In this document: positions 32,728 to 33,729 of the stretch, one piece after another | Position numbering within the stretch: the stretch's first letter is position 1 | How the letters are laid out: every line of letters starts with the position of its first letter | DNA from: Natronomonas sp. CBA1123 | GTDB taxonomy: Archaea > Halobacteriota > Halobacteria > Halobacteriales > Haloarculaceae | Assembly: GCF_009741925.1 (NCBI RefSeq) | Contig: NZ_WPCC01000031.1 | Location: 1-35,756, forward strand | Direction of reading: 5' to 3' | Length of the DNA: 35,756 nt | Notes under the pieces: generated by a model | Database searches by the model: none | Told to the model about the DNA's origin: nothing | Seen by the model: only the letters and a program-made list of their open reading frames with translations | Program-made: the position numbers and the translations under genes

Positions 32728-32841
32728 TGTCGTCGGTAGTCGTCGGGGACCGGAGAACCTTCCGGAATCGGCGGGTCGTTCGATGGATGGACCAAAGCCA
32801 TGAGGGGAATCTGAAACCCCGAGTTTACCCCACCGACTGGA

Positions 32842-32870
32842 ACGATATCACTACATACCACTGATATCGT
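32842..32870 (-). terminator. 9-bp inverted repeat after the nuclease tail
   Basis: ACGATATCA (32842-32850) and TGATATCGT (32862-32870) are perfectly complementary, with an 11-base loop. On the minus strand the stem starts 6 bases after the TAA at 32877-32879. It is well placed as a transcription end for the reading that passes the 33039 stop. The remaining ~110 bases up to the gene at 32727 hold no recognised feature. Confidence 0.5.
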
Positions 32871-32876
32871 CGAGAA

Positions 32877-33038
32877 TTACGACGCTAAAACAGAGAGGCC
32901 ACCAATAGCGACAATCGCAGCCCCGACCCAGTTCAATGAGATGCTCCACATTGTGCCACTCAATGGTTGGGCAATTATGAGAATAGCAATCGTGAGTCCG
33001 GCGACTGCCAGCGAACCGGCGACATCCTGATTATCATA
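32877..33038 (-). other. Two-helix tail in frame behind the nuclease stop
   Basis: In the same frame as the 175-residue gene, directly after its TGA (33039-33041), 53 sense codons follow to a TAA at 32877. They encode two hydrophobic segments, DVAGSLAVAGLTIAILIIA and LNWVGAAIVAIGGLSVLAS. There is no ATG, GTG or TTG at the start of this stretch, only an internal ATG. A stop-to-sense change (for example GGA to TGA) would fuse it to the nuclease. The remaining possibilities are a small separate gene with a rare start, or a remnant. Confidence 0.45.
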
Positions 33039-33566
33039 TCAGAACAATCCCCCACCGCCTAACAGGCCTCCATCGTCATCTCTAGAATCGGCATTCTTTC
33101 CCATATCCTCACGCCGTTTGATTACGAACGCGAATTGAGTCATGTCCATCATTCCTCGGTTACGGTCGATGAACTTGTTCTCAAGCTCCCTCCACCCATC
33201 CATATCTTCAATCCCACAAGCACAGGCGATGACGTAATCGTAGTTGTCTGCGTAGTCTTCCAATTGCCCACGTAACTTCTTTTTCTGGGAGTTTGTGAAG
33301 TTCCGTTTCAGTTCAATCCCAACTTCGTCATCCACCACTACATCTCCATACGAAGTACCTCGTTCGGTGCTGACAACGTGGCTACCTCCACCAGCATCCA
33401 ATCCAAGGCCAAGCCCACCAGACTGTTGATTAAGGGCTTGGTCAAGATAGTCCTGCAGTTCGGATTGGTATTTCCTCTCGTGGTCATATTCCGCTGAAGG
33501 AATCCACTGGTCAACGAGGTCGAGGACATCCCTCCCTAATGGATTACCGATACCCATGACGCTCAA
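33039..33566 (-). CDS. PD-(D/E)XK nuclease-like protein, possibly truncated
   Basis: This is a 175-residue protein. Candidate catalytic residues of the restriction-endonuclease fold are Glu36 (KYQSELQDYL), Asp75 (SYGDVVVDD) and Glu85-x-Lys87 (VGIELKRNF). Gln101 follows in a helix (KKLRGQLEDYADNYDYVIACAC). This order fits PD-(D/E)XK enzymes that cut or process DNA. The C-terminus is a charged, Gly-rich linker (SRDDDGGLLGGGGLF) that ends at a TGA, after which a membrane tail continues in frame. Composition is AT-richer than the flanking cox genes, and Lys and Ile codons are more frequent. The gene stands alone between the cox units, suggesting acquisition. The substrate is unknown. Confidence 0.65.
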   Translation of the reverse strand: MSVMGIGNPLGRDVLDLVDQWIPSAEYDHERKYQSELQDYLDQALNQQSGGLGLGLDAGGGSHVVSTERGTSYGDVVVDDEVGIELKRNFTNSQKKKLRGQLEDYADNYDYVIACACGIEDMDGWRELENKFIDRNRGMMDMTQFAFVIKRREDMGKNADSRDDDGGLLGGGGLF

Positions 33567-33683
33567 CTAAATGCGCTCGTGAAAAAATCTTCCTCCGGTA
33601 TTTCTGAGATGATTTCTGATGTAGGCGTCAAGGAGTACGATTCGTCAGAACTCTATGATTCTCAGAGAGATGGTTCTTGTCCG

Positions 33684-33707
33684 AAATAAAGGCCGCTGAA
33701 AGCGACC
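33684..33707 (-). terminator. Terminator of the cox2-cox3 unit
   Basis: An imperfect stem (GGCCGCT/AGCGACC, 33691-33707) is followed on the minus strand by TTTATTT (33684-33690). It lies 23 bases after the cox3 stop. Confidence 0.45.
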
Positions 33708-33729
33708 AAATCAGTAGAAGGTTGCCGTC

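Follow-up and report, generated by a model that had tools for sequence, protein, structure and literature searches.

A haloarchaeal PD-(D/E)XK-like nuclease gene and a small downstream membrane-protein gene as a candidate two-gene membrane-tethering module

Introduction

Membrane nucleases that cut phage DNA at injection have been shown only recently, and in bacteria, with SNIPE as the main example and Kiwa and Zorya as systems built on related ideas. SNIPE is a single protein, studied in bacteria, which comprises an N-terminal transmembrane (TM) segment, DUF4041 and a GIY-YIG nuclease, and this membrane-placed nuclease cuts phage DNA during injection (PMC13190303). Its membrane-targeting region is poorly conserved, with about a third of the homologues lacking a TM segment, and the nuclease without its TM anchor is highly toxic (PMC13190303). 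In Kiwa (KwaA/KwaB) and Zorya, a membrane protein is encoded with a DNA-acting partner that is active at the entry site (PMC12904381).

Here, we describe a locus in the draft genome of a haloarchaeon (G000; 89 contigs), in which a nuclease-like gene is directly followed by a region encoding two membrane helices. The stretch of DNA analysed, hereafter the window, is an entire contig of 35.7 kb. An earlier note on this DNA had interpreted the locus as a membrane-anchored nuclease whose anchor was cut off by a nonsense change.

Results

Nuclease gene and small two-helix gene

The features of the window and the membrane-partner arrangements found in related genomes are listed in Table 1. The C-terminal end of the nuclease ORF, DDDGGLLGGGGLF (GGLLGGGGLF), forms a Gly-rich linker with a hydrophobic GGLF terminus and runs directly into the TGA stop. 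Past this stop, the frame stays open for 53 further codons (YDNQDVAGSLAVAGLTIAILIIAQPLSGTMWSISLNWVGAAIVAIGGLSVLAS) that encode two hydrophobic helices and ends at TAA (32879-32877). A hairpin with a perfect 9-bp stem (ACGATATCA / TGATATCGT) begins six bases past the TAA; its folding energy is -14.4 kcal/mol (z = -2.1), and it is not kept in the alignment with G001, a genome of the same genus. The linker running into the TGA, the open frame with two helices and the hairpin had all been described in the earlier note and were borne out. The note had also stated that no start codon opens the tail, which holds for the nuclease frame, as ATG, GTG and TTG are absent ahead of the helices and the first in-frame TTG (+75) and ATG (+87) both lie within the tail, but an ATG (33037-33035) whose frame is offset by one nucleotide from that of the tail body (33035-32880) had been overlooked.

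Table 1. Features of the window and arrangements of membrane partners in the nuclease family
Feature or arrangement	Position	Strand	Basis or occurrence
PD-(D/E)XK nuclease-like protein, 172 aa	33042..33557	minus	ATG at 33557, stop TGA 33041-33039
Small two-helix membrane protein gene	32877..33037	minus	homologous intact separate genes, alignments A1 and A6, dN/dS below 1
Ancestral ATG of the small gene, with the one-nucleotide frame break in codon 2	33035..33037	minus	alignments
9-bp hairpin, possible transcription end signal	32842..32870	minus	3' of the small gene
Promoter-like element GGAGGAAGATTTTTTC, BRE/TATA-like	33577..33600	minus	shortly upstream of the nuclease ATG
Low-GC insert (about 49%) carrying the module	32799..33717	.	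GC profile, relatives G009 and G015
Separate two-helix partner (8)			window, G001, G402 (SD626R), G216 (H. aquaticus), G030, G378, G433, G461
Separate one-helix partner of 29-40 aa with LPDW motif (8)			G040, G064, G038, G022, G112, G090, G435, G325
One helix fused C-terminally (3)			G004, G306 (Halalkalirubrum), G197
No recognisable membrane partner within 700 nt (8)			G079, G167, G053, G045, G288, G384, G203, G330
Divergent group, two helices fused, ExK pair lost (eleven genomes)			G072, G083, G166, G040 (second copy), G332, G157, G319, G075, G262, G309, G261

In the four closest relatives, namely G001, Halorubrum SD626R, Halonotius aquaticus and G030, the counterpart of the tail is a separate gene encoding 53-56 aa that starts from an ATG of its own, at the nuclease stop or just past it, and this stop (TGA or TAA) lies in the same place every time. 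G001 contains the closest nuclease homologue (91% amino acid identity), and its tail homologue, which shows 80% identity, lies in another frame and starts with its own ATG after TAA-T. In Halorubrum SD626R (L028) and Halonotius aquaticus (L029), the TAA is directly followed by the ATG of a 53-aa two-helix protein, and G030 encodes a 56-aa two-helix protein behind a TAATG junction. Intact homologous genes of this type are also present in G378, G433 and G461. The start codons in the family overlap or touch the nuclease stop (TAATG, TGATG or TAAATG), and the frame offset between the two genes varies among relatives (-1, 0, +1 and +2).

In the alignments of the four closest loci (A1 and A6), the overlooked ATG falls opposite the codon that starts the separate homologous gene, and the window shows a one-nucleotide gap right behind it. 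Codon 2 is thus one base short, and the body of the tail lands in the nuclease frame, apparently by accident. The lesion in the window is a shift of frame by one nucleotide where the small gene begins, rather than a nonsense change inside a fusion. The comparison of the tail with that of G001 yielded a dN of 0.125 and a dS of 0.517 (0.053 and 0.833, respectively, for the nuclease), and these values, together with the 80% identity, indicate that the tail is more than a chance ORF and was under purifying selection as a protein until recently. Because this selection is still visible in the tail, the lesion would be either a real recent change or a sequence error; no homopolymer run is found at the site. 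A CTG codon just ahead of the first helix may serve as an unusual in-frame start. A separate conserved two-helix gene with its own start was what the note had named as refuting the fusion; near relatives have such a gene directly 3' of the nuclease stop, and the fusion is thereby refuted for this locus, although fused helices do occur in more distant homologues.

The promoter-like element is conserved in four loci whose farther upstream flanks cannot be aligned, and it travels with the module.

Nuclease family

The family profile was built on an alignment of 17 homologues (A2), in which D72 is invariant. E82-x-K84 is kept in all core members but L014 and is lost in L015 and in the group with two fused helices. 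These residues are likely to be catalytic, judging from their conservation. The AF2 model of the window nuclease (pLDDT 78, pTM 0.74) shows an alpha-beta-beta-alpha-beta core (H27-47, E73-75, E79-87, H89-103 and E108-116). Both hallmarks of the PD-(D/E)XK superfamily, the core fold and the catalytic D...(D/E)xK, are thus found in the model and the sequence, respectively. In a Foldseek search, XPF nuclease domains ranked first (E 0.013), with PspGI and YaeQ lower in the list; none of these matches was significant, and the nuclease-like fold noted earlier is supported by the model together with these weak superfamily matches. Weak profile matches were obtained to phrog_28707 'nuclease' (9.1e-6) and sce7726 (0.0013), each in one to five members, and to DpnII-MboI (0.0098) in one member. 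No Pfam match to Mrr_cat (PF04471) was found in the window protein and 16 homologues, and none to GIY-YIG or DUF4041. The PDB profile search gave matches at chance level only, the BFVD fold search gave no significant match, and neither by sequence nor by fold did the family match any named family significantly. The window nuclease is thus placed in an unnamed PD-(D/E)XK-like family, with metal-dependent DNA cleavage as a predicted activity. There is no apparent secretion signal on the protein.

In all core homologues, including those at partnerless loci, a Gly-rich C-terminal stretch and a short hydrophobic peptide (GGLF, GIPGI, DLLGF or GMFDF) are present. The divergent haloarchaeal homologues L015, L017, L021 and L054-L060 carry two fused C-terminal helices and have lost the ExK pair; they are probable dead-nuclease membrane proteins. 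In G090 (L013/L020) and G360 (L051), the nuclease genes are interrupted by internal stops or frameshifts, and the adjacent LPDW peptide is intact in G090.

Distribution and exchange of membrane partners

The profile search identified family matches in 34 of the 391 genomes of the class. Small TM ORFs were found downstream at 13 of 27 family loci, compared with 0-2 of 324 control genes from the neighbourhood, each at least 150 aa long, for which comparable ORFs were sought at the same distance; the ORF rules were fixed after the partners had been seen, and the comparison somewhat overstates the significance. A chance association of these ORFs with the nuclease genes was ruled out by this control. 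Strong matches to both small membrane families occur only directly behind nuclease genes: all seven strong places of the LPDW one-helix family in the 391 genomes directly follow a window-type nuclease, and so do all strong copies of the two-helix family, with the sole exception of G016. Weak two-helix matches in G031, G101 and G439 are parts of long membrane proteins, and a weak LPDW match in G343 lies within a 374-aa frame, also of a long membrane protein; these were treated as chance. G325 contains two copies of the nuclease and LPDW peptide genes (L075 and L076), about 61 kb apart and with the same neighbours, which represent a recent segmental duplication. The membrane micro-genes consist of 29-56 codons; no family model matches them, and annotation is likely to miss them.

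A maximum-likelihood tree of the nuclease domain contains some long branches, and only well-supported nestings were therefore used. The nuclease of G040, which has a one-helix partner, nests with those of G030 and G461, which have two-helix partners (starred support), and that of G378, with a two-helix partner, nests inside the one-helix clade. In G016, the window-type two-helix gene follows an Mrr_cat nuclease gene (PF04471, E 7.5e-24). Mrr nucleases of G079 and G082, which are 65-71% identical to that of G016, are likewise followed by a small membrane gene. The small proteins of these three loci (L134, L135 and L136 in G016, G079 and G082, respectively) have a common DDDDLRFGDV-like N-terminal segment and differ in the membrane part, which is a single helix in G079 and G082 and the window-type two-helix domain in G016. 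In other Mrr homologues, the helices are fused. Taken together, the tree nestings and the Mrr relatives indicate that the membrane part behaves like an exchangeable module of more than one nuclease family.

Genomic setting

The module has a GC content of about 49%, compared with roughly 60-70% in its surroundings. The insert replaces a palindrome-rich spacer of about 216 nt between cox-region genes; in the close relatives G009 and G015, this short spacer is found in place of the module. In these relatives, the spacer (L096, 2380-2600, in G009) is built of GC-rich palindromes, and it is precisely at this point that the G015 assembly is interrupted (contig ends C1 and C2; L167 and L164). No target duplication, inverted or terminal repeats, or transposase was found at the insert. 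Family loci sit at different places even among genomes of the same genus, and no recurrent neighbours, wider operon or defence island was found around them. The patchy presence, the absence of common neighbours and the low GC content suggest that the module moves horizontally. The phage, plasmid and IMG/VR viral-contig collections contained no homologues, and PADLOC, run on the nuclease family and the small proteins, gave no match, including to KwaA/KwaB or ZorA/ZorB; the sole resemblance found by PADLOC was that of the separate G016 Mrr protein to the Mrr domain of ZorD.

Discussion

We consider it probable, though far from certain, that the locus represents a two-gene module consisting of a cytoplasmic PD-(D/E)XK-type nuclease and a downstream micro-membrane protein that holds the nuclease at the membrane. 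The small protein would bind the nuclease, probably via its Gly-rich hydrophobic C-terminal peptide, and tether it to the inner face of the cytoplasmic membrane, where the nuclease would cut viral or other foreign DNA on entry and be kept off the chromosome. The window copy probably yields no anchor, which would leave a soluble or inactive system. This reading draws on the separate ATG-started partners, their touching start codons, the enrichment of small TM ORFs behind family genes, the fusions, the partner swaps in the tree and the Mrr relatives. The occurrence of the helices as fused segments in some relatives and as separate, coupled genes in others points to a physical association by the classical fusion argument. 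The idea of membrane anchoring advanced in the earlier note thus gains support from the partner genes and distant fusions, whereas the fusion at the window locus itself does not stand. The role against entering DNA is probable by analogy with SNIPE. Several points weigh against this reading: a membrane partner could not be recognised in eight core members, the family shows no PADLOC match, defence-island neighbours or homologues in phages, plasmids or viral contigs, and the resemblance to known nuclease structures is weak (best E 0.013). In addition, the SNIPE nuclease is highly toxic without its anchor, yet the anchor-less copy in the window persists.

Among the alternatives, a toxin-antitoxin pair, with the nuclease as toxin and the small membrane protein as antitoxin or sequestering partner, would account for the small overlapping genes, their patchy distribution and the swappable partners. 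We regard it as unlikely, as the eight partnerless core members nearly all keep D and ExK and fused forms are atypical of such pairs. Furthermore, the nuclease is intact beside a broken partner in the window and is broken beside an intact peptide in G090, which together argue against a strict toxin-antitoxin relation, each case being known from a single genome sequence. A housekeeping membrane nuclease acting in DNA uptake and nutrition, in repair or in chromosome handling at the membrane has a similarly small chance of being correct: the membrane link without defence-island context speaks for it, but the patchy, low-GC occurrence at differing places even within a genus is unlike that of housekeeping genes, and the nuclease lacks an apparent secretion signal. 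It is more doubtful still that the hydrophobic peptide is a membrane-active effector (a pore-like toxin) with the nuclease-like protein as its sensor or regulator. The one- or two-helix proteins of 29-56 aa do resemble small membrane toxins, and the window has kept the nuclease-like gene beside a broken peptide; however, the reverse is seen in G090, and peptides that are fused or replaced by unrelated helices fit an anchor better than a specific pore. Finally, an ancestral fused nuclease truncated by a nonsense TGA, or a fused form made by readthrough, is very improbable despite the position of the tail in the nuclease frame without an in-frame start and the true fusions in distant relatives, because near relatives end the nuclease at the same place and start the partner in differing frames, a pattern not accounted for by the loss of a sense codon or by readthrough of a stop conserved in frame, and because the ATG is still present in the window.

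Beyond the tethered module itself, the Mrr loci lead to a broader and more tentative proposal, to which we give slightly less than an even chance, that haloarchaea use snap-on anchors, i.e. interchangeable one- or two-helix micro-proteins that sit behind unrelated PD-(D/E)XK nucleases (the window family and Mrr), split from or fuse with them, and would turn a generic nuclease into a membrane gatekeeper. If this is true, the gain, loss, splitting and swapping of anchors in archaea, with another nuclease type, would mean that membrane location itself is selected as a way to tell incoming from own DNA. The natural split of nuclease and anchor makes the idea easy to test. The concept of a membrane-bound defence nuclease is already known; in the literature searched, no paper on this nuclease family or on its small partners turned up, and the family with its split, swappable archaeal micro-anchors is absent from the family libraries and papers searched.

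As in SNIPE, the nuclease is associated with a poorly conserved, exchangeable membrane segment, with membrane placement predicted here from the sequence; by the same prediction, a TM partner is separate or fused in most of the nuclease relatives and absent in eight. Unlike SNIPE, the window family is archaeal and PD-(D/E)XK-like, lacks DUF4041, and has its anchor at the C-terminus or in a separate downstream gene. The principle of encoding a membrane protein together with a DNA-acting partner is shared with Kiwa and Zorya, whereas the partners here are proteins of 29-56 aa with one or two helices and show no KwaA/KwaB or Zor match. The predicted core fold and the D...ExK motif are those of the PD-(D/E)XK superfamily, which includes the XPF/ERCC4 nuclease domain, PspGI, YaeQ and DpnII-MboI. 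The window nuclease has no PF04471 match and is distinct by sequence from the haloarchaeal Mrr_cat nucleases, but both combine a PD-(D/E)XK nuclease with a small downstream membrane gene (in G016, G079 and G082 for Mrr_cat) and have fused helices elsewhere.
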